A stretch of 64,000 bases of DNA from NCBI GenBank assembly GCA_943841885.1, contig CALSZZ010000002.1:92262-156261 (forward strand), written 5' to 3'. Below the pieces are notes generated by a model. It made no database searches, was not told the DNA's origin, and saw nothing but the letters and a program-made list of their open reading frames with translations. The DNA comes from Candidatus Thalassarchaeaceae archaeon. Lineage in GTDB: Archaea; Thermoplasmatota; Poseidoniia; Poseidoniales; Thalassarchaeaceae. Each line of letters begins with the position of its first letter. The first letter of the stretch is position 1. This document shows, piece after piece, positions 13,207 to 24,882 of the stretch. Both the position numbers and the translations under genes were made by a program.

Positions 13207-15288
13207 ATGTCACAAATCCATACTCAACAAATGGGTCGTTTAATTGCAGCAGGAAGTAAAGATAAACTAGACGAATTGATAGATTGTTTGGCGAATCTAA
13301 ATGCACTTCACATTATAGAATATGATGGTTTAGAAGAGGGTTTCAAACTCGGTTCTCCAAAAGAAGAAGCAGAAATAATAGGCAAGCGTTTGAATAAACT
13401 TCGTTCTGCAGCTTCTATAGTAGAAGGGAAAAATCCTAAAAATCCTATCTCTGTTGAGAAAATTCGGTCAGAATTGATTAATTCTTTACCTGATGCAGTA
13501 GAATTATTACTGGAAAAAAGTACAAGATTAGATATACTTGAAAATAAAATTTCTTCTCTTTCTGAAAAAAAAATATTCTTGGAGCTAATATCTTCATTAG
13601 ATTTAGATGTTGAATTACTTTCAGGTTACAATAATATTTCTTCTTTCGTTGGAACTGTATCAGATTTAGCTCCCCTCAACGATATCGAACAAGATACTCT
13701 TATCTTCACAGGACAATTTAAGAAATCAAATGTATTGGCACTATTTGTAAAAAATAAAGACTCAAGTTCAATCCAATCAATATTAAATGTATGTGGTTTT
13801 CAAGCAATTAGTATTTCAGAAAATTTAAATGGCAATCCTGGAGATTTACTTTCAGAAGTTATAGAAAGTATGAATACTTTACAATTTGAAAAATCATCAA
13901 TAATAAAAGATTTAGAATTGTGGAATGGTGAATTTGGAGTATCATTAATATGTGGTTTGGAATTACTAGAAAGAGAGCATGATATTTTGACTGCACCCGT
14001 TAAAATTGCAGTTTCGAATCATGCATTTTTGGTTGATGGATGGATTGAAATGTCAAGATCCGAAGAGGTACAAAATGCTCTTTTAGATTGTTGTATATTT
14101 ACAGAAATATCGCCCTTTAAAATTAAAGCGGGAGAGGGAGGCCATGGGCATTCCGATCATTCTCACAATCAAGAAATGCCGCCTATTGCATATCAAAATA
14201 GGACTTTTTCCAAACCAATGGAATTACTCACTGATGCCGTCGGTCGTCCAGCATATGGTAGGATAGATCCTACCTTATTCATGTTTGTAACATATCCTAT
14301 TTTCTTTGGAATGATGCTGGGTGATATGGCATATGGAATTATCACAATGTCTCTTGGGGCATTTATAATGGGCCAAGCAGGGTCTAACAATTTAATGAAT
14401 CTGGGCGGCAAATTTCTCATTTATATCGGATTAGGCACATTTGTGTTTGGTTATTTATACGCTGAATTCGCAGGATGGGAAATATTCCCTCATGGCCATA
14501 GTAATCCAGCAGAAGCACTTTCTATTTTTTACCCTCCTGTAGATTCTCATGGTTCTGTGTGGCATCATTCATATCCATTCGGCATAGAGTTAGCGTACCC
14601 ATTCCACAGAGTTACGTTAGTTGAAGATCATGGAAATCTTGAGCACCTAGTTCTTTTAACTATTTATTTAGGTCTAATTCACATCTTATTTGGCCGTTTA
14701 ATAGGTTTCCGTGATGTAATGTTTTATGGTACTGACCATGGTCACATAGGATTCTTCGCAGCATTCTTTGAACATGGTGTTTGGATAATATTATTGATAG
14801 GGGGTTTCTTCTTTTCATATGGATTTTTAGGGCCCAAAGAAGCAGAATATATGATGATGCCCGGGATGTTTATCGCAATATCAGCAGTAATATTATTGAT
14901 TTGGACTTTATTCAAATATCATGGGATTCCATTGGCAATTAGTTTAATACTTGCCCCAATAGAAGCGATTGGAATGATGCCCTCGGTAATATCCTACGTT
15001 CGTCTTTTTGCTGTAGGAGTAGTTGGAGTTAAAATTGCTGAAACAGGAAATATTAAACTTTTTGAGCCCATGGTTCATGCAATCGAAAATAGTGATTTTT
15101 TAGTAGTTCCATTTTTGCTAATTGGATGGTTAGCAGTACAATTCTTTGCTTGGGGTCTGGGTGTTTTTAGTCCAAACATTCATGCTGCAAGACTTCATTT
15201 TGTAGAATGGATGAGGCAATATTATGATTCTAGCGGAGAGGAATTTTCACCTTTCGGTTTTCGCTCGCACCATGTGGAGGTCGAGTGA
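13207..15288 (+). CDS. atpI: A-type ATP synthase subunit I (a)
   Basis: 693 residues. The soluble N-terminal half (about 1-340) contains coiled-coil arms. A His-rich patch HGHSDHSHNQE near residue 315 precedes the membrane half, which has about seven or eight helices. The segment SVISYVRLFAVGVVGVKIAE near 597-616 carries the arginine needed for ion translocation opposite the c-ring glutamate. Shine-Dalgarno GGAGATGA precedes the ATG. Forms the membrane stator and ion half-channels. Confidence 0.93.
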   Translation: MSQIHTQQMGRLIAAGSKDKLDELIDCLANLNALHIIEYDGLEEGFKLGSPKEEAEIIGKRLNKLRSAASIVEGKNPKNPISVEKIRSELINSLPDAVELLLEKSTRLDILENKISSLSEKKIFLELISSLDLDVELLSGYNNISSFVGTVSDLAPLNDIEQDTLIFTGQFKKSNVLALFVKNKDSSSIQSILNVCGFQAISISENLNGNPGDLLSEVIESMNTLQFEKSSIIKDLELWNGEFGVSLICGLELLEREHDILTAPVKIAVSNHAFLVDGWIEMSRSEEVQNALLDCCIFTEISPFKIKAGEGGHGHSDHSHNQEMPPIAYQNRTFSKPMELLTDAVGRPAYGRIDPTLFMFVTYPIFFGMMLGDMAYGIITMSLGAFIMGQAGSNNLMNLGGKFLIYIGLGTFVFGYLYAEFAGWEIFPHGHSNPAEALSIFYPPVDSHGSVWHHSYPFGIELAYPFHRVTLVEDHGNLEHLVLLTIYLGLIHILFGRLIGFRDVMFYGTDHGHIGFFAAFFEHGVWIILLIGGFFFSYGFLGPKEAEYMMMPGMFIAISAVILLIWTLFKYHGIPLAISLILAPIEAIGMMPSVISYVRLFAVGVVGVKIAETGNIKLFEPMVHAIENSDFLVVPFLLIGWLAVQFFAWGLGVFSPNIHAARLHFVEWMRQYYDSSGEEFSPFGFRSHHVEVE

Positions 15289-15333
15289 TATTACATTCCA
15301 AGCTTAAGGCTTAGATAAAATGGAGGAAAAAAT

Positions 15334-15636
15334 ATGAATAATAAAAATAAAATGAGAGGAATGAGTATGTTATTGACATTATCATCGATTGTGATGATTG
15401 CAACTAGCGTACAAGCTGAAGCAAATGAAAGTACAGTAGAAGCGTATGGTAAGTTAGGAGCAGGAATTGCTCTAGGCTTAGCAGGAATTGGGACTGGGTT
15501 AAGCCAAGGGCCAATAGGAGCTGCAGCTGTAGGAATGATTGCTGAAGATAGTAGTAAGTTCGTTAATGGACTAATCTTCACAGCATTACCTGAAACCATT
15601 GTACTTTTTGGATTTCTTGCATTATTCTTGCTCTAA
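15334..15636 (+). CDS. atpK: A-type ATP synthase subunit K (c, rotor ring) with signal peptide
   Basis: 100 residues. Residues 1-28 form a basic start plus hydrophobic helix ending VQA, resembling a cleaved signal peptide. The mature part is the usual two-helix hairpin. Helix 1 contains GLSQGP with Gln58. Helix 2 contains LPETIVLFG with the ion-carrying Glu87 followed by Thr88. A Gln in helix 1 plus a hydroxyl residue after the Glu is the arrangement known from sodium-binding c subunits, so sodium coupling is possible though not proven. Shine-Dalgarno TGGAGGAA precedes the ATG at 15334. Confidence 0.9.
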   Translation: MNNKNKMRGMSMLLTLSSIVMIATSVQAEANESTVEAYGKLGAGIALGLAGIGTGLSQGPIGAAAVGMIAEDSSKFVNGLIFTALPETIVLFGFLALFLL

Positions 15637-15681
15637 GCAGAATTGTGTGTTTTATCCATAATTTAAAAATGAGGTTTAATA

Positions 15682-16239
15682 ATGACATTAGATGCATTAG
15701 CAAATGAAATTGATAATCAGGCCAAGGCCGAAGCAAAATCTATTATTGATTCTGCAAAAGCTCAGGCCAAGGCAATAGAAGATGAAGCAAGAGATCAAGC
15801 AACTTCCTTATCTTCTGAGATGACGGAACGCGCAGAAAGGGAAAGTGCTCAACTTTCAGTAGAAGTTGTTGCATCTGCCAAACAGGCTAACCAGAAACAT
15901 CTGCTGATTGCTCGTCGAGAAGAACTAGATGAAACATGGAAATCTATTCGAAAATCAGTATCTTCTCCAGATCTTGATGGCCGTTCGAATATCTTGAAAT
16001 CTCTATTATCCGAGGCGAAAAAATCAGGTAAAGGGATGCTATTGAGGCCTGTTGCCATAGATAGGAAAGAACTCGAAAAAGAAAATTTTGATATCGGTGA
16101 AGATATTGAAGGATTAGGAGGATTTGTACTTGAATCAAAGGATGGATCAGTAGTTCTCGATTATAGATTCGATAGCCGATTAGAAAAATCATGGCAAGAA
16201 AATCTTGGATTGGTTAATAGTACTTTATTCAGTAACTAA
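15682..16239 (+). CDS. atpE: A-type ATP synthase subunit E
   Basis: 185 residues. The first 90 are a charged Ala/Glu/Lys coiled coil (repeated AKAEAKSIIDSAKAQAKA-type heptads). The C-terminal 95 form the globular domain ending DYRFDSRLEKSWQE that contacts the A3B3 head. Peripheral stalk partner of subunit H. Shine-Dalgarno GAGGT lies before the ATG, and subunit C follows after 11 bases. Confidence 0.85.
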   Translation: MTLDALANEIDNQAKAEAKSIIDSAKAQAKAIEDEARDQATSLSSEMTERAERESAQLSVEVVASAKQANQKHLLIARREELDETWKSIRKSVSSPDLDGRSNILKSLLSEAKKSGKGMLLRPVAIDRKELEKENFDIGEDIEGLGGFVLESKDGSVVLDYRFDSRLEKSWQENLGLVNSTLFSN

Positions 16240-16250
16240 ATGGTGTTTTT

Positions 16251-17306
16251 ATGTCTAGAGTAGTAAGTGGTCGTTCAAATATTTATAACGCTGCCGCGCG
16301 AGCTAAAGCGCGAAAAGCATCGTTGATAGACCCAACAAGAATGCTACAGTTATTGCAATTAGGTCCAGAGTCTATTGGAGCAAGTATTGGAGAATTAGGT
16401 TATCGAAATGAAATGGATATTTATGCATCTAGAATGAGTGGTGCTGATGCTGTAGAGGCAGCTCTAGTACATAATTTAGACAATGATTTATCGGAGATAT
16501 TAAATTTTTGCCAGGGTCCTCTGAAATCCATAGTATCCATATATATTGAACGTTTTTCTTATGAAAAGGCAAAAACTGTTCTTAGATCGGTTAATGGAGG
16601 GTGCTCAGATGAATTAATAGAATCACAAATATTGCCTTCAGAAAATCCAATGAATACAATTTGGCTAGATATTGTTAGAAATACAGAAACTGTAGAAGAA
16701 GCAGCAAGTGCAATGACTGGGACTCCTTGGGGCAAAGAATTATCAAAACTAGAAGGCTCAGAAACTACTCTCGAAGAAATGGAAGATGCATTGGATCGTC
16801 AATATTATTCTAACGCACTTCAGATATCAACAGGAAAAGATTCCAATATACATTTGATGAAGTATATTAGGACCGAGATAGATCATAGAAATATAATAAA
16901 TCAATTCCGTGAATTACGTCAAAATATTTCTCCAGAAAAACGTTCACAAATGATTATATTAGGAGGCAGAATTCAAAATTCTATTATGCTACAAGCATCG
17001 CAAACTACCAATCAAGAAGCATTATTAGATACTCTCAGAAGAAGTATTTATTTCGATGATGAGGGCTTTGATGAAGCATTAGCAGAGTCTAATAAAACTC
17101 AATCGCTAGATTCAATAGCATCTTTACTTACACATAAAAGGCATGCGATGCTAAAACGTTTTTCATATCTTAATCCTGTTTCACCTTTCCCGGTGATTTA
17201 TTATATAGAAAGAAAAGTACTTGAAATTCAAAATCTTCGTCTTCTTGTGCGTGGGAAGGCAATCGGACTTACATCTGAGGTATTGGAATCGCATATGGAT
17301 TTTTGA
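16251..17306 (+). CDS. atpC: A-type ATP synthase subunit C
   Basis: 351 residues, mostly helical, of the V/A-type subunit C (d) family that caps the c ring and links it to the central stalk. Typical features are IGELGYRNEMDIYA near residue 46 and the C-terminal PVIYYIERKVLEIQNLRLLVRGKAIGL segment. The stop is 10 bases before the GTG start of subunit F. Confidence 0.88.
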   Translation: MSRVVSGRSNIYNAAARAKARKASLIDPTRMLQLLQLGPESIGASIGELGYRNEMDIYASRMSGADAVEAALVHNLDNDLSEILNFCQGPLKSIVSIYIERFSYEKAKTVLRSVNGGCSDELIESQILPSENPMNTIWLDIVRNTETVEEAASAMTGTPWGKELSKLEGSETTLEEMEDALDRQYYSNALQISTGKDSNIHLMKYIRTEIDHRNIINQFRELRQNISPEKRSQMIILGGRIQNSIMLQASQTTNQEALLDTLRRSIYFDDEGFDEALAESNKTQSLDSIASLLTHKRHAMLKRFSYLNPVSPFPVIYYIERKVLEIQNLRLLVRGKAIGLTSEVLESHMDF

Positions 17307-17316
17307 GGTGGATAAT

Positions 17317-17616
17317 GTGGAAATAGCAGTCGTAGGTTCTATGGATTTTACTCTTGGCTTTCAACTAGCCGGAGTATTGAGGCTATATAATCCAAAAAAT
17401 ATAGAAGAAACAGCTTCAACTATGAAAGATTTGTTGAATCAAAAAGAAATTGGTGTCATCGTTATAGATAATTCTGATTTAGTAGAACTCCCTGAAAGAT
17501 TGCGAATACAACTTTCAGAGAGTATAACTCCCACAGTATTGGGAATAGGGACAGAAGAGGATAATACCCTCAGAGAGTCAATCAAATCGGCACTAGGAGT
17601 CGATTTGTGGAAATAA
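17317..17616 (+). CDS. atpF: A-type ATP synthase subunit F
   Basis: 99 residues from GTG 17317, preceded by GAGGTGG at good spacing. A longer upstream frame overlaps atpC by 86 bases and is unlikely. The protein begins VEIAVVGSMDFTLGFQLAGV, the usual subunit F Rossmann-like start with a GDxxTxxGFxLAG-type loop, and ends in a helical tail. Central stalk and regulatory subunit. Confidence 0.88.
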   Translation: MEIAVVGSMDFTLGFQLAGVLRLYNPKNIEETASTMKDLLNQKEIGVIVIDNSDLVELPERLRIQLSESITPTVLGIGTEEDNTLRESIKSALGVDLWK

Positions 17617-17650
17617 ATCCTAGAAAAAATAAATGGAAGTGAATTAAAAA

Positions 17651-19393
17651 ATGAGTGAAGAAAAAGGAGTAATTTATCGCATCTCGGGGCCAGTAGTAAC
17701 AGCAACAGGAATTTCCCCAAGGATGTATGAAGTCGTGCGGGTTGGAGATGAAGGTTTGATGGGGGAAGTAATTGAATTACATGGCGATCAGTCTGTGATT
17801 CAGGTTTACGAAGAAACATCAGGAGTTAGGCCAGGTGAACCTGTAATAAGGACTGGACAAACTTTATCCGTTCAATTAGGACCAGGTCTTTTGACAAAAA
17901 TATATGATGGCATACAAAGGCCTCTACCAGAACTTGAGAAGACAATGGGAGTTTTCATTACTAGGGGCGTAGATGCTGACGGACTCGATTTAGAAAAGAA
18001 TTGGAATTTCAATCCAACTGTTAAAGTTGGAGATAATGTTTCTTCAGGGGATGTAATAGGAACAGTACAAGAAACAACTACTATTGAACATAGAGTAATG
18101 ATCCCTCCTGGTATTTCAGGGGCTGTAAAAGAAATAAAATCTGGTGATTTTAATGTCACTCAAACAATATGCGTATTAGATGGCGGAGATGAAATAAAAA
18201 TGATGCAGAAATGGCCAGTTAGGACTCCAAGGCCTTTCACAAAGAAGCATGCTCCTGAAGTACCTCTACAAACAGGACAAAGAATTCTAGATTTCCTTTT
18301 TCCTTTAGCAAAAGGAGGTACTGCAGGTATCCCAGGTCCATTCGGCTCAGGAAAAACAGTTACTCAACAACAATTAGCCAAGTGGTCTGATGCAGATATC
18401 GTCGTTTACATTGGTTGTGGGGAGAGAGGCAACGAGATGACAGAAGTTCTTGACGAATTCCCTCACCTAATAGACCCAAAAACTGGTGAAGCGTTGATGA
18501 ATAGAACCACTATGATTGCAAACACATCTAACATGCCGGTTGCAGCCAGAGAAGCTTCAGTTTATACTGGAATTACTATTGCTGAATATTTCCGAGATAT
18601 GGGTTATGATGTTGCCCTCATGGCTGACTCAACTAGTCGTTGGGCAGAAGCAATGAGAGAAATTTCATCCAGACTTGAAGAGATGCCCGGTGAAGAAGGA
18701 TATCCGGCATACCTTTCTAGTCGTTTAGCAGAATTCTATGAAAGGGCAGGCCGTGTAGAGACACTTTCTGGGGGAGATGGTTCGGTTTCCGTAATAGGGG
18801 CAGTTTCACCTCCCGGAGGCGATATTTCCGAACCTGTAAGCCAAGGTACCTTACGTATCGTCAAAGTTTTTTGGGGCTTGGATGCTGGATTAGCGCGTCA
18901 AAGGCACTTTCCAGCAATTAATTGGCTTAACTCATATTCATTATATCCGCCTTCATTGGATCAATGGTACAGAGATAATATAAAAAGTGATTTTCCAGAA
19001 ATCAGAACCCAAATAAGTTCACTTTTACAAGTGGAAGCAGAATTGCAAGAGATTGTACAACTAGTCGGTTCAGACGCACTTCCGGTAGATCAACAATTGA
19101 CTCTTGAAGTTGCTCGTATGATTAGGGAATTTTTCTTACAGCAAAATGCTTTCCATGATGTAGATACATATAGTGACCTCAAACTTCAATATATTATGGC
19201 TAAAGCTATTTTGTCTTTCCAAGAAGAATCTAAGAAAGCCCTTGCAGGTGGTTCCGCATTAGAAGATGTAGTGAATGTGCCTGCTAGGACTGATTTAATG
19301 AGAGGTAGATTTGAATCAGGCTATGAAGATAGGATACAAGAAATGTTGGATGAAATGACTAAACAAATTGCTGATACTATGGAGAATGATTAA
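17651..19393 (+). CDS. atpA: A-type ATP synthase catalytic subunit A
   Basis: 580 residues. The Walker A loop GPFGSGKT is at about 229-236, the Walker B region [14 protein letters not shown] near 325, and the A-subunit-specific long insertion after the beta-barrel domain at about 110-200 is present. [18 protein letters not shown] near 380 is also typical. Catalytic site for ATP synthesis in the A3B3 head. No intein is present at the P-loop region, a known intein site in this family. Confidence 0.97.
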
Positions 19394-19405
19394 GGAGTGG
19401 TATAA

Positions 19406-20791
19406 ATGACTGGAAAAGAATATAGAACAATAACTGATGTAAAAGGACCTTTGGTGTTCTTAAATAAGACTGAACCTGTTGCCTTTGGAGAAATCGTTGA
19501 ATTAAGACTTTCAGATGGTACAATGAAGAATGGACAAGTTCTCGATACTTCTGATGATCAAGTAATTGTACAAGTCTTTGAAGGAACTGCTTCAATAGAT
19601 AAACAAACAGGAATTAAATTCCTTGGTGATGTTTTCAAATTACCTGTCAGTAAAGATATGATAGGTCGTATTTTAGATGGTGCTGGAAGGCCTAGGGACG
19701 GAGGCCCTCCCATTGTTGCTGATGAAATGGCAGACATTATAGGGGCTGCTATAAATCCATATTCTCGACAAAGCCCATCTTCTTTTATTCAGACAGGTAT
19801 TTCGGCAATCGATGCCTGTACTTCATTGGTCAGAGGTCAAAAATTACCTATCTTCAGTGCATCTGGACTTCCTCATAATGATATTGCATTACAAATCGCT
19901 AGACAAGCAAAACTAGTAGATAGCGATGATGATTTCGTAGTTGTTTTCTGCGCAATGGGAATAACGGCAGAGGAGTATAACTTCTTTGTCCATGATTTAG
20001 AGAGAACAGGGGCACTTGAAAATGCCTGTTTGTTCGTTAACTTGGCAGATGATCCAGCCGTTGAGAGACTAATTACTCCAAGATTGGCATTAACGGCTGC
20101 AGAATATCTTGCCTTTGAACACGATTATCATGTGTTAGTTATTTATACTGATATGACGAATTATTGTGAATCATTACGTCAAATAGGTGCCGCCCGTGAA
20201 GAAGTTCCTGGTAGAAGAGGATACCCAGGATACATGTATACCGATCTAGCAATGCTTTACGAGCGTGCAGGATTGGTAAAGGGAAAGAAAGGCTCGATTA
20301 CCCAATTCCCAATATTAACTATGCCGGGAGATGACATAACACATCCTATACCTGATCTATCAGGATATATCACTGAAGGGCAAATTGTTATTTCTCGTGA
20401 ATTACACCAAAAAGGAATATATCCTCCAATAAATGTTCTCCCTTCGTTATCTAGATTAATGAATGCGGGTATAGGTGATGGGAAGACACGGGAAGATCAC
20501 AAATCTGTTTCTGATCAATTATATGCTGCCTATGCACAAGGGAGGGAATTGAGAGGATTAGTCGCTATTGTGGGCGAGGATGCTCTTAACGAAAGAGATT
20601 TACAATTACTCAAATTTGCAGATATTTTTGAAAATCAATTCCTTCGTCAAAGTAGAGACGAAGATAGGGACATAGGAGAAGGTACACTAGATTATGCATG
20701 GGAACTACTTTCTAATATAGATACAAAATATCTTGTTCGCCTAGATCAAAAATGGATTGATAAATACCACCCTAATGATAAGAAAAATTAA
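19406..20791 (+). CDS. atpB: A-type ATP synthase subunit B
   Basis: 461 residues. The nucleotide-binding subunit without a true P-loop: [18 protein letters not shown] stands where Walker A would be. [38 protein letters not shown] is the family signature in the middle, present near residues 248-285. Shine-Dalgarno AAGGAGTGG precedes the ATG by a few bases. Confidence 0.96.
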
Positions 20792-20824
20792 TCAATTTTA
20801 AAAAAATTATTGGAGATGAAAGAT

Positions 20825-21442
20825 ATGGCATTGGATATAAAGCCCACAAGATCCGAACTAATTAATCTAAAGCGTAGAATTAAACAAACATCTAGTGGAT
20901 ATAATTTACTAAAAATGAAAAGAGATGGTTTATTTTTTGAATTCAGAACATTATTGGCCGAGATGATTGCCGCAAAGGAAGAACTTGTAGGGACTTATCG
21001 TGATGCCCTAAAATCAATCGCTCTAGCTTCTTCAATTGAAGGAGGGCTTTCAGTTAAAAGTGCTGCAATCGCTGCAAATTCTGGTCCTGAAGTAATGGTC
21101 TCAAGGAGAAATATAATGGGAGTTGTAGTTCCAAAAGTAGAAGGTACAAATCTAACTACTACTGTTGAAACTAGGCCTACGGGAATTATCGGTGGCTCTC
21201 CGTATATAGATGAAGCAGCAGATTCCTATTCTATATTAATTTCTAAAATCGTTAAAGCGGCAGAAATGGAGGCTACTTTGAAAAGATTATTAGAAGAGAT
21301 AGAGGCAACCAAAAGAAGAGTAAATGCTTTGGAATTTGTGGTAATACCTGAGATGAAAGAAGCTCAAACCTTTATTCAATTACGTTTGGAAGAAATGGAA
21401 AGAGAAGAAACTTTCAGATTAAAACGTTTCAAGAATAAATAA
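20825..21442 (+). CDS. atpD: A-type ATP synthase subunit D
   Basis: 205 residues from ATG 20825, chosen over an in-frame TTG at 20810 because GGAGATGA just upstream gives good spacing and the protein then starts MALDIKPTRSELINLKRRI as in the family. Two long helices at the ends form the central rotor coiled coil. Last gene of the operon; a 75-base gap follows. Confidence 0.9.
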   Translation: MALDIKPTRSELINLKRRIKQTSSGYNLLKMKRDGLFFEFRTLLAEMIAAKEELVGTYRDALKSIALASSIEGGLSVKSAAIAANSGPEVMVSRRNIMGVVVPKVEGTNLTTTVETRPTGIIGGSPYIDEAADSYSILISKIVKAAEMEATLKRLLEEIEATKRRVNALEFVVIPEMKEAQTFIQLRLEEMEREETFRLKRFKNK

Positions 21443-21517: not shown

Positions 21518-23932
21518 ATGGAAGATGTTAATCCAATATCCATTGATACAGAAACTTGGGGCAATCAAGAATTAACACAAGTCATAGCATCAAGATATTT
21601 TATTTTAGGCCAAGAAACTAATCAACAATCTTCTTGGGAAATTAGTTATTTGAGTGAAATTGACGCTGCAAATTCCCTATCTCTTTTAAACAATCACCTA
21701 GAATCACTAGGCCTTATCGGCGTATTAAGTAATGATATCTTACCAGTGCTGAGTATAATTCCATTACCTTCCTCTTCTAGTGTTTCTAGTCGTTGGCAAC
21801 AAATCTTAATCTGGTCTTTAATGTCAATATTCTTAACTATTGTTGGCGCTGAATGGTTTGGTAGGTATGATCAAAATAAGGGAATACTCAATTCTGATAA
21901 TATACAAGAATCACTATTTTATTTCACCATCCCCATAATATTCACACTGTTATTATGTAGCCATTTAAGATACTGGATTGCAAAACATAATTCAGTAGAT
22001 AGTGGACACATAATTCCAATAATATTTCCAATATTGTATCCTATGTGGCCATTCGGTTTAACAGGAATTTTATCTCAAAAAAGGATGGATAACATCCCTT
22101 TCCCGGATCGCAAAAAATTAGCTATTATCGAATCAATACTTCCTTTGTCTATATTCTTTATAGGGTCATTATTGACCATAATTGGACTTAAAATAACTTC
22201 AAACGAACCTCCAGATTTAGAAACCTCGCCGATAGTATTTGAGGTAAATCAAATAACTCAGATAATATATTCATCACTATTTGACGACATAGAATTAAAA
22301 TTACAATGGCTACATCCAATCGGAATAGCCGGATTAGGGCTATCGATGATTGCCTGGATTCTTTTATTACCAATTCCTGGATTTCCAGGCGATAGATTAC
22401 TTTATTCTCTTTTTGGACCTTCTGAAATGTCTAAGGGAGAATTACAAACATCATTATTTATTTCCTCTCTTACAATTATGATTATTATTTTTGCCTTCGT
22501 CAATTATCTTCCTTGGCTATTCCTAGTTGCATTTGCAACTTGGCAACGCTTCAGCCCAGAAAATAATATAATCCCGTTTGTAGTTAATCAGAATATTGAT
22601 TTAAGTAATGATTCAAAATCAAAAATCACCATTATACTAGTATCTATACTGATTCTTGGGTTTCCTGGTTTTAGTCCTATTTCAGATTTGGAAGACTACG
22701 ATTCAGGATTATCAACTAGCGATTGGCCGGAGGATGCTGAAATACCTCAATTTGGTGAGGCTAGTTTAGATTTTTTACTTCAACCTAATGGAATCATGCC
22801 AGTTTCAGGGTTTTTACAGTTTAGTATTGAAGGAAGCCAATCGGAGTATTGGGAAATCAACTCTAGTTGTGGAAAAAATAAGTTTTGTTATTTCAGTAAT
22901 GTGACTCAAAATAGTAATCAATTAATCAATATCGTCGTAAAGGCTCCTAATTTTATTTTTGAAGAAAAAATGTATTTGAGAATAGTTATTGATGTCAATG
23001 AAAACGAAAAGGAACACTTAATATTACTATATAATAATCAATATTCTGGCCCAAAAAATGTATTTTGGATAATTTCTAATAATAGTAATAATCCCATAAT
23101 TTGTACAAAAATAAATATTATCTCAGGAGATAGAGGTAACTTATCTTTAACAAATCCATTTTGGAATTTTGAAAATTCCTCATTTATGAAAGAAGGAATC
23201 AATGATTTATGTTTAATAGGTCATGAGGGAGCGTTATTTTCTTCAAATTCTACAGATGAGCAATTTCGGCAGTATGGGCCATCTATTCAATTCAATAGAG
23301 AAAATAATACTACATTAGAGTGGTGGATGCCTATTGAGAATACTGAACCTAATATTCTTATTTCAGGTACTGAATGGACTATACCTCCATGGATAAATTT
23401 GGAAAATACTCAGTATTCAATTGTTTATGGTTCCGATAATCCTGTGTTCTGTAAGTCAAGTGATATAGTTACGGAAGTGAACGCAAATTGGACTTTACCA
23501 TTGGAAGAATATACTCCAATAAAATTCTCAAAAGGACCAATAATTAATGGTACAATAATTGTACCTTCTACTGGTTGGTTAATGATATGTAATGAAAGCA
23601 CTCCAGTCTCTAAGTATATCATTAAAGAAGGACTAGATGTTATCATTAATCAGGGCTCTATTAATAATAAAATAATTACTAATTCGTTTTCAATAATTAA
23701 TAGAGAGAATTTCTCAATACCTATTTCCGTAGAGTGGTATGGGGATTCAGTAAATTATGGTGCTTGGGGTGTTCAAAATATACCAGGATTTGTAGGACCC
23801 AATGAAGAGGTTGAAATAATCATGGAAGAAAAAGTTGACTCTTCATTATATTATTCATCTTGGATCTCAATTGATCAAGATACTCTAACAATACATATTT
23901 CAGTCAGATGCCCATCATATGGGTGTTCATGA
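21518..23932 (+). CDS. Site-2-protease-like membrane protein lacking the catalytic HExxH
   Basis: 804 residues. The first 390 contain about seven hydrophobic helices laid out like archaeal M50 site-2 proteases. A helix ending LLCSHLRYWIAKH (about 143-156) sits where HExxH is expected. IIFPILYPMWPFGLTG matches the post-HExxH loop, and LHPIGIAGLGLSMIAWILLLPIPGFPGD near 265-292 matches the NxxPxxxLDG helix. The two His and the Glu of HExxH are not in order, so peptidase activity is unlikely. The last 400 residues are an extracytoplasmic beta-rich, Asn/Ser-rich region with possible N-glycosylation sites. Shine-Dalgarno GGGGAGAAG; stop overlaps the next start. Confidence 0.6.
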   Translation: MEDVNPISIDTETWGNQELTQVIASRYFILGQETNQQSSWEISYLSEIDAANSLSLLNNHLESLGLIGVLSNDILPVLSIIPLPSSSSVSSRWQQILIWSLMSIFLTIVGAEWFGRYDQNKGILNSDNIQESLFYFTIPIIFTLLLCSHLRYWIAKHNSVDSGHIIPIIFPILYPMWPFGLTGILSQKRMDNIPFPDRKKLAIIESILPLSIFFIGSLLTIIGLKITSNEPPDLETSPIVFEVNQITQIIYSSLFDDIELKLQWLHPIGIAGLGLSMIAWILLLPIPGFPGDRLLYSLFGPSEMSKGELQTSLFISSLTIMIIIFAFVNYLPWLFLVAFATWQRFSPENNIIPFVVNQNIDLSNDSKSKITIILVSILILGFPGFSPISDLEDYDSGLSTSDWPEDAEIPQFGEASLDFLLQPNGIMPVSGFLQFSIEGSQSEYWEINSSCGKNKFCYFSNVTQNSNQLINIVVKAPNFIFEEKMYLRIVIDVNENEKEHLILLYNNQYSGPKNVFWIISNNSNNPIICTKINIISGDRGNLSLTNPFWNFENSSFMKEGINDLCLIGHEGALFSSNSTDEQFRQYGPSIQFNRENNTTLEWWMPIENTEPNILISGTEWTIPPWINLENTQYSIVYGSDNPVFCKSSDIVTEVNANWTLPLEEYTPIKFSKGPIINGTIIVPSTGWLMICNESTPVSKYIIKEGLDVIINQGSINNKIITNSFSIINRENFSIPISVEWYGDSVNYGAWGVQNIPGFVGPNEEVEIIMEEKVDSSLYYSSWISIDQDTLTIHISVRCPSYGCS

Positions 23933-24882
23933 TGAGAATTGCAATATTAGGAATTGGTTCCATTGGAGGAGTTTTTCTCTCTTCTCTCGCCGATTCAAAT
24001 GCTGATTTAATTGCTGTTTCTAGGGGTTTAAGGGCATCTCAAATCTCTGAAACAGGAATTATCTTACATACTCCAGAAGGTACCATTGAACATTTTCCAT
24101 CTGAATTGTTTACAGTATTTGATAGCGATTCCGGTCCCCTTCCATCTTCATTAACTAAGTCTTGTGATTTTGTCTTAATTTGTGGAAAGAGCTATTCTAC
24201 ACCTTATTTGGCACCATTGGCCTTTCAATTACTTGCATCAGATGGAATGGCTATCAGTATGCAAAATGGCCTTGGCCACGCCGAATATCTTTCAAGTATG
24301 ATTGGGAAAAATAAGGTATTAGGTTGTACTGTAACTCATGGCGCATGGAAAGACGCCGACTCATTTCATTGGGAAGGAAGGGGCGAAATAACTCTCGGTT
24401 CATTAGATGGAGCAAAACCATCTCAAAAGGTGAATGAATTTATTTCTTTGCTGGAAGAATCCAAACTCTTTCCAAGATGGAGTGAACAAATTACAAAAGA
24501 AATTTGGATTAAATTACTCATTAACATAGCAATTAACCCAATTTGTGCCATTACGGGTTTGCGTAATGGAGAAATACTAATGCAAGAAGACATTTGGTAC
24601 CAATCTGAATCTTGTATGAAAGAAGCATCAGTCATTGCCAAAGCCTCAGGAATCAATTTAGATGATATAGATTTGAATAAAAAACTTCGCTCAATAGTTA
24701 TTTCAACCGGAAAAAATCGTTGTTCAATGTTACAAGATATTATGTCCGGAAAAAGAACAGAAATCGACTCTCTATGCGGGGTGATAATATCGAAAGGGGA
24801 ATCTATTGGAATACCGACTCCTCTTAATTCAATGCTATTTTCTATGATAAAAGGAATAGAAAAATCATCTAATATTCATTAA
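23929..24882 (+). CDS. PanE/ApbA-type ketopantoate reductase family protein
   Basis: 317-318 residues. The ATG at 23929 overlaps the previous stop, with a second ATG directly after. The N-terminal NADPH-binding GIGSIGGVFLSSL is at about 7-19. MQNGLGH near 112 and the C-terminal helical domain with KLLINIAINPICAITG near 203 contain the Lys and Asn typical of 2-dehydropantoate 2-reductase. Expected role: pantoate formation on the way to coenzyme A, fitting the CoA gene at 45427-46464. Family members also act on other 2-keto acids. Confidence 0.8.
   Translation: MMRIAILGIGSIGGVFLSSLADSNADLIAVSRGLRASQISETGIILHTPEGTIEHFPSELFTVFDSDSGPLPSSLTKSCDFVLICGKSYSTPYLAPLAFQLLASDGMAISMQNGLGHAEYLSSMIGKNKVLGCTVTHGAWKDADSFHWEGRGEITLGSLDGAKPSQKVNEFISLLEESKLFPRWSEQITKEIWIKLLINIAINPICAITGLRNGEILMQEDIWYQSESCMKEASVIAKASGINLDDIDLNKKLRSIVISTGKNRCSMLQDIMSGKRTEIDSLCGVIISKGESIGIPTPLNSMLFSMIKGIEKSSNIH

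Follow-up and report, generated by a model that had tools for sequence, protein, structure and literature searches.

The gene under study lies on the forward strand of a 64,000-nucleotide stretch of DNA from a Marine Group II archaeon, here called the window, and encodes a protein of 804 amino acids that we named PS2P. The open reading frame is complete, and its coordinates agree exactly with those listed in an earlier note on this DNA. The closest named relative of the protein is encoded in the Marine Group II MAG MED-G38 and shares 92% identity with it. The gene sits right behind the ATP synthase operon, as the earlier note had already stated, since atpD ends at position 21442 and a gap of only 75 bp separates it from PS2P. 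All features of the locus are compiled in Table 1.

Table 1. Features of the PS2P locus and its direct neighbors (positions refer to the window)
Feature	Position	Strand	Basis
A-type ATP synthase genes I, K, E, C, F, A, B, D, directly upstream	13207..21442	+	Subunit names by reading the open reading frames
Pseudo site-2 protease gene (PS2P), 804 aa	21518..23932	+	Open reading frame; family profile against intact M50 proteases
N-terminal domain, residues 1-92, also present in intact relatives	21518..21793	+	hhalign restricted to this part
M50-like membrane domain, residues 93-388	21794..22681	+	hhalign of residues 93-395 alone; hydropathy
Position of HExxH, here C147-S-H-L-R151	21956..21970	+	Joint alignment; survey of 90 loci
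Putative cytosolic re-entrant loop region, residues 159-200, containing WPFG and PDR; strong conservation	21992..22117	+	Conservation
Position of LDGGH, here F289-P-G-D-R293; zinc-ligand Asp is Pro290	22382..22396	+	Joint alignment
C-terminal outer domain, residues 389-804 (416 residues), six family-wide cysteines	22682..23929	+	Alignments; survey
Ketopantoate reductase-like gene (panE/apbA by reading), overlaps the 3' end of PS2P	23908..24882	+	Open reading frame

The hydropathy profile of the membrane domain has peaks near residues 105, 141, 175, 215, 277, 320 and 379. Together with the acidic, cysteine-bearing tail, these peaks suggest a topology with approximately seven membrane passes and a re-entrant loop, an N-terminal domain that is probably cytoplasmic and a C-terminal domain that would be located on the outer side. 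The region from residue 159 to 200, in which W177 is kept in 90 of 90 loci, presumably represents the re-entrant loop of site-2 proteases, an assignment made by analogy with RseP. An AlphaFold model computed from two sequences only (the window protein and its 92% identical counterpart L031) reached a pLDDT of 29.6 and a pTM of 0.20, values too low for the model to be used.

The relationship of PS2P to the M50 site-2 proteases is, as far as sequence comparison can tell, real, but it becomes visible through family profiles and not through a single-sequence Pfam scan. The window protein alone has no match in Pfam, also not to PF02163 at its curated cut-off, its comparison to Pfam and NCBIfam combined yielded only chance matches below the cut-off, and phmmer against the PDB returned nothing but noise. 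We therefore describe the family by an alignment of 39 PS2P homologs (A1) and compare it to an alignment of 34 intact M50 proteases from the same phylum (A2), from which the degenerate sequence L133 was left out. All 34 members of A2 match PF02163; in A1 weak matches to this family occur in seven of the 39 members, with a best E-value of 0.025. When the two profiles are aligned with hhalign, they match over 447 columns with a probability of 99.9% and an E-value of 1.9e-31. The relationship extends to the single parts of the protein: the N-terminal part alone matches the intact relatives (probability 96.9%, E-value 1.6e-10; reversed control 0.4%), and the membrane core is homologous in its own right, with a probability of 99.5% and an E-value of 2.8e-22 for residues 93-395 alone (reversed control 0.3%). 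The probability stayed below 1% in the reversed-profile controls.

Searches in both directions gave the same picture. The A1 profile finds 35 relatives by hmmsearch with E-values from 3.1e-29 to 1.8e-14, and in the reverse search the A2 profile matches 49 of 51 open reading frames of the PS2P family, the one of the window protein with an E-value of 6.5e-20. None of 385 reversed or window-shuffled decoys was matched at an E-value of 10 or less. The A2 profile also matches the solved structure of MjS2P (3b4r) with an E-value of 1e-5 over its HELGH and MDGG segments, and a joint profile (A4) likewise covers both catalytic segments of this structure; the A1 profile alone does not reach 3b4r and found only noise in the PDB. 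No PS2P relatives were detected in a scan of viral contigs. These profile comparisons show PS2P to be a homolog of the M50 site-2 proteases and to belong to a subtype with an N-terminal soluble domain. We take the intact proteases of A2 that possess this N-terminal domain to be of the EGY-like subtype. PS2P shares with the intact A2 proteases the N-terminal domain, the membrane core and the positions of the HExxH-helix, the PNR loop, the HP motif and the LDGG loop. In contrast to PS2P, all of the intact proteases possess HExxH and LDGG, and their outer tails are not detectably related to that of PS2P.

In the joint alignment, the intact consensus ILGxHELGHY stands over LLLCSHLRYW of the window protein and NLLPxGQLDGGH stands over LLLPIPGFPGDR. 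The HExxH motif is thus replaced by C147-S148-H149-L150-R151, and all three zinc ligands as well as the catalytic glutamate are gone, whereas MjS2P has HELGH and MDGG at the same segments. The replacement of HExxH had been noticed before, but it had been read as SHLRYW, which starts one residue too late, since it is CSHLR that aligns with HExxH. Similarly, the segment LLPIPGFPGD had been described as retained. This holds for the loop as such, but not for its zinc-ligand aspartate, the place of which is taken by Pro290.

A survey of HExxH retention among homologs, as proposed in the earlier note, was carried out with 91 loci from 91 genomes, 90 of which have residues at the sites in question (L187, the G094 duplicate of L147, was left out). 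The first histidine is present in none of the 90 loci (alanine in 68, cysteine in seven, glycine in seven, others in the remainder), and neither is the catalytic glutamate, which is replaced by serine (80 loci), asparagine (four), threonine (three) or histidine (three). At the position of the second histidine we found glutamine (42), arginine (40), lysine (five) and threonine (one), so that this ligand is lost in 88 loci and histidine occurs in just two. The aspartate of LDGGH is missing in every locus, with proline in 86 and alanine in four of them. G291 and P287, both located beside the lost aspartate, are kept in 90 of 90 loci, so the loops around the lost sites remain. With this pattern, PS2P is almost certainly a pseudoprotease.

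It is conceivable that the old cleft was repurposed for a different chemistry or for transport, for example around S148, R198 and R293. S148, which occupies the place of the catalytic glutamate, ranks within the 40 best conserved positions, and R198 and R293 are kept in 85 and 83 of the 90 loci, respectively. However, a conserved set of three metal ligands is not seen in the membrane domain, where H266 is kept in 81 and H164 in 67 of the 90 loci. We therefore rejected an alternative metal site in this domain and consider a repurposed active protein very unlikely.

The A1 profile matches 182 of the 194 genomes of the class, namely 172 of 173 genomes of the lineages f1 and f2 and ten of 21 genomes of f3, the sister lineage. 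We infer that f1 and f2 correspond to the Poseidoniales (MGII) and f3 to the neighboring MGIII, based on the kinship codes and on the relative that bears a name. The only f1/f2 genome without a match, G015, also lacks atpD and panE (the latter search was run without a positive control). Since these two genes are absent as well, the locus is simply missing from the assembly, and a true loss of the gene in G015 was rejected. The f3 proteins matched by the A1 profile are intact proteases, and the intact-type profile matches all 21 f3 genomes, each of them with HExxH and LDGGH. Among 59 Poseidoniales genomes, no intact copy of the PS2P subtype was detected; the intact-type profile matched nothing there apart from the pseudo locus and proteins with the tail domain. 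Split or stop-broken copies of PS2P occur in G014, G022, G051, G088, G101, G111, G113, G118, G133 and G169, and are probably assembly errors or the result of contig ends.

In the phylogenetic tree all pseudo sequences form one clade with an SH-aLRT support of 100 on a long branch, which agrees with the active site having been lost once. A joint clade of PS2P and the f3 homologs does not appear in the free trees. However, a tree constrained to contain it is not rejected and even scores higher (p-AU 0.656), so vertical descent of PS2P together with the f3 homologs is compatible with the data, but not shown by them. The second tree was calculated without L133 and with nine pseudo rows thinned out. 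L133 itself, a 644 aa open reading frame on the minus strand in G262, outside the Poseidoniales, has WELGR in place of HExxH, keeps the FDGG loop and sits on a long branch. It is possibly a second, independent pseudo-S2P.

PS2P is under purifying selection. The dN/dS ratio amounts to 0.095 (G000 versus G009) and 0.110 (G007 versus G001), and to approximately 0.08 for the membrane part in both pairs; in more distant genome pairs the synonymous sites are near saturation. A ratio of about 0.1 rules out a dead gene. The lack of a Pfam match of the single sequence and the split or stop-broken copies in some assemblies would agree with a decaying remnant or a chance resemblance to M50 proteases, but given this ratio, the retention throughout the order, the strength of the profile match and the failure of every decoy, such an explanation is extremely improbable. 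The designation as a pseudo site-2 protease, which the earlier note had introduced, is strongly supported by the profile comparisons, by the absence of the catalytic residues throughout the order and by the purifying selection.

Among the parts of the protein, conservation is lowest in the C-terminal outer domain, with a mean of 0.36. Nevertheless its cysteines are kept to a large extent: C529 and C565 in 88 of 88 sequences, C645 in 87 of 87, and C451, C457 and C691 in 80-82 of 87-88. No Pfam family was found for this domain, neither with the window protein nor with the members of A1, and its comparison to the tails of the intact relatives gave no significant match (probability 2.7% for the whole domain and 10.1% for its first part). 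An internal repeat within the domain is not supported, with a best probability of 11%. C-terminal tails of 107-363 aa are also present in 20 of the 34 intact relatives, and an outer tail is therefore not specific to the dead form. The fusion to a long outer domain, described before, is real, but it does not go hand in hand with the loss of catalysis. The same domain had been called Asn-rich. This is true for the window genome, which is AT-rich (GC content of the window 0.354) and in which the asparagine content is 11.0%, but it is not a property of the family, where the content ranges from 2.4 to 11.3%. In a side observation, the C-terminal tail region of the intact M50 proteases was matched by proteins of approximately 900 aa, found at G000:C6:19500-20060 and at equivalent places in further Poseidoniales genomes, which suggests that these proteins and the intact proteases may share an outer domain.

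Within the membrane domain, residues 159-200 and 263-300, which by analogy we take to be the cleft-lining regions of site-2 proteases, have a mean conservation of 0.64 compared to 0.48 for the remaining membrane domain. Only two of 294 circular shifts gave a value as high, although this test is descriptive, since both segments were picked after the invariant columns had been viewed. Judged by these alignments, conservation within the membrane domain is highest at the former cleft, which may partly reflect a folding constraint. This distribution of conservation bears on the idea that PS2P is an envelope or signaling receptor, whose outer domain detects or tethers an envelope component, whose membrane and N-terminal parts relay the signal inward and in which the S2P fold is a mere scaffold. 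The size of the outer domain, its six family-wide cysteines and the retention of all three parts (N-terminal, membrane and outer) in full-length copies would suit such a receptor. It is hard to reconcile, however, with an outer domain that is conserved least and a former cleft that is conserved most within the membrane, and a function as receptor is therefore unlikely.

The conserved cleft would also be expected if PS2P acted as a decoy regulator in the proper mode of iRhoms, binding either the two intact M50 proteases that remain in the genome or the substrates of these enzymes and thereby restraining regulated intramembrane proteolysis. Poseidoniales do keep intact M50 proteases. A match to PF02163 was found in 59 of 59 genomes, all 30 long proteins of other subtypes that were examined possess HExxH and FDGGH in one open reading frame, and HExxH is present in all four short ones examined. 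However, these intact proteases are of other subtypes and are encoded elsewhere in the genome, with no link to PS2P, which makes a decoy function doubtful.

We favor the explanation that PS2P is a dead M50 homolog acting as a membrane escort or stabilizer, to which we assign a probability of roughly 55%. According to this model, PS2P would be unable to cut peptide bonds, its retained intramembrane cleft would hold transmembrane segments uncut, and partners on the two faces of the membrane would be recognized by the N-terminal domain and by the outer domain with its cysteines. It would thereby serve as an escort or stabilizer akin to chloroplast EGY3 or the animal iRhoms. Holding transmembrane clients uncut would be the most economical role for an S2P cleft that is kept but dead, and a binding or quality-control role similar to that of iRhoms would fit the conservation of the former substrate cleft. 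That PS2P is a non-cutting binder or escort has about even odds. With less weight, the clients might include the membrane sector of the ATP synthase.

The latter suggestion originates from the gene order. The order atpB-atpD-PS2P-panE is found in every Poseidoniales locus with the flanks covered. Of the 91 loci, 90 have a PS2P match, atpD is encoded next to PS2P on the same strand in all 89 that include atpD, and panE on the same strand in 86. The gap between atpD and PS2P was estimated at 79 bp (median; a single locus deviates, with 540), and a gap of about 79 bp could accommodate a promoter of its own for PS2P. Past panE the order decays: in L045, which belongs to the other family, 4.9 kb beyond panE are without a match to the next genes of the window; L031, from the same genus, keeps the window genes beyond panE. 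In f3 an atpD locus was identified in 16 of 21 genomes, and PS2P or panE stands beside atpD in none of them within the flanks covered, although contig ends truncate a part of these flanks. Nor are there ATP synthase genes near the 35 other relatives within the flanks covered. Since this linkage was seen neither in f3 nor in the other relatives, the move into the operon and the loss of catalysis fall on the same lineage.

The fixed position behind the A-type ATP synthase genes makes the ATP synthase an obvious candidate client. However, panE, a metabolic gene, is equally fixed beside PS2P, so that gene order alone is no proof of a role in ATP synthase biology, and we regard the ATP synthase as an unlikely client for the time being. 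One could imagine that at the origin of the Poseidoniales the gene of an intact intramembrane protease was relocated to the operon of the A-type ATP synthase, that a single event destroyed its zinc site and that the protein henceforth served specifically in the assembly or quality control of the membrane sector of this reportedly Na+-type enzyme, but this scenario is rather improbable. If it were true, a protease would have turned into a chaperone of A-type ATP synthases, and a functional link of this kind would point to a hitherto unknown assembly or quality-control step of these enzymes.

Pseudoproteases of the rhomboid family have reshaped the thinking on intramembrane proteases. The iRhoms resemble PS2P in being dead descendants of an intramembrane protease that are kept for another role, as described in PMC3149277. 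They differ in that they belong to the rhomboids and in that their role was established experimentally, whereas that of PS2P is deduced. Among site-2 proteases, PMC9355673 names a single pseudoenzyme, plant EGY3. According to PMC10978774 and PMC9355673, EGY3 is an S2P homolog without HExxH that is conserved across a whole major lineage, as is PS2P, and it was reported to stabilize chloroplast proteins. In contrast to PS2P it is a plant thylakoid protein, and the likeness lies in the published description. The distribution of the two suggests that EGY3 and PS2P result from separate loss events. Among the titles and opening abstract lines of the open-licence PubMed Central papers searched, there is no report of an S2P pseudoprotease from archaea or from Marine Group II. 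PS2P, as an order-wide, old and strictly conserved archaeal pseudo-S2P, seems to be an independent case, for which intact sister versions are available for comparison.

Some minor observations concern the surrounding genes. In the f3 loci L194-L206, two genes in convergent orientation lie behind atpD, whose products by eye resemble ribosomal protein S24e and a DUF359 protein (GTP-dependent dephospho-CoA kinase); panE, which stands beside atpD in Poseidoniales, would likewise be a gene of the CoA pathway. The c-subunit motif in the window reads LPETIVL. In PMC6336850, the motif LPETIxL is tied to MGIIb and the A1AO ATP synthase of Marine Group II is considered to be putatively of the Na+-type. 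The open reading frame of the ATP synthase K subunit (15334-15636 of the window) begins with a stretch that resembles a signal peptide and ends in VQA, and this stretch might need processing.
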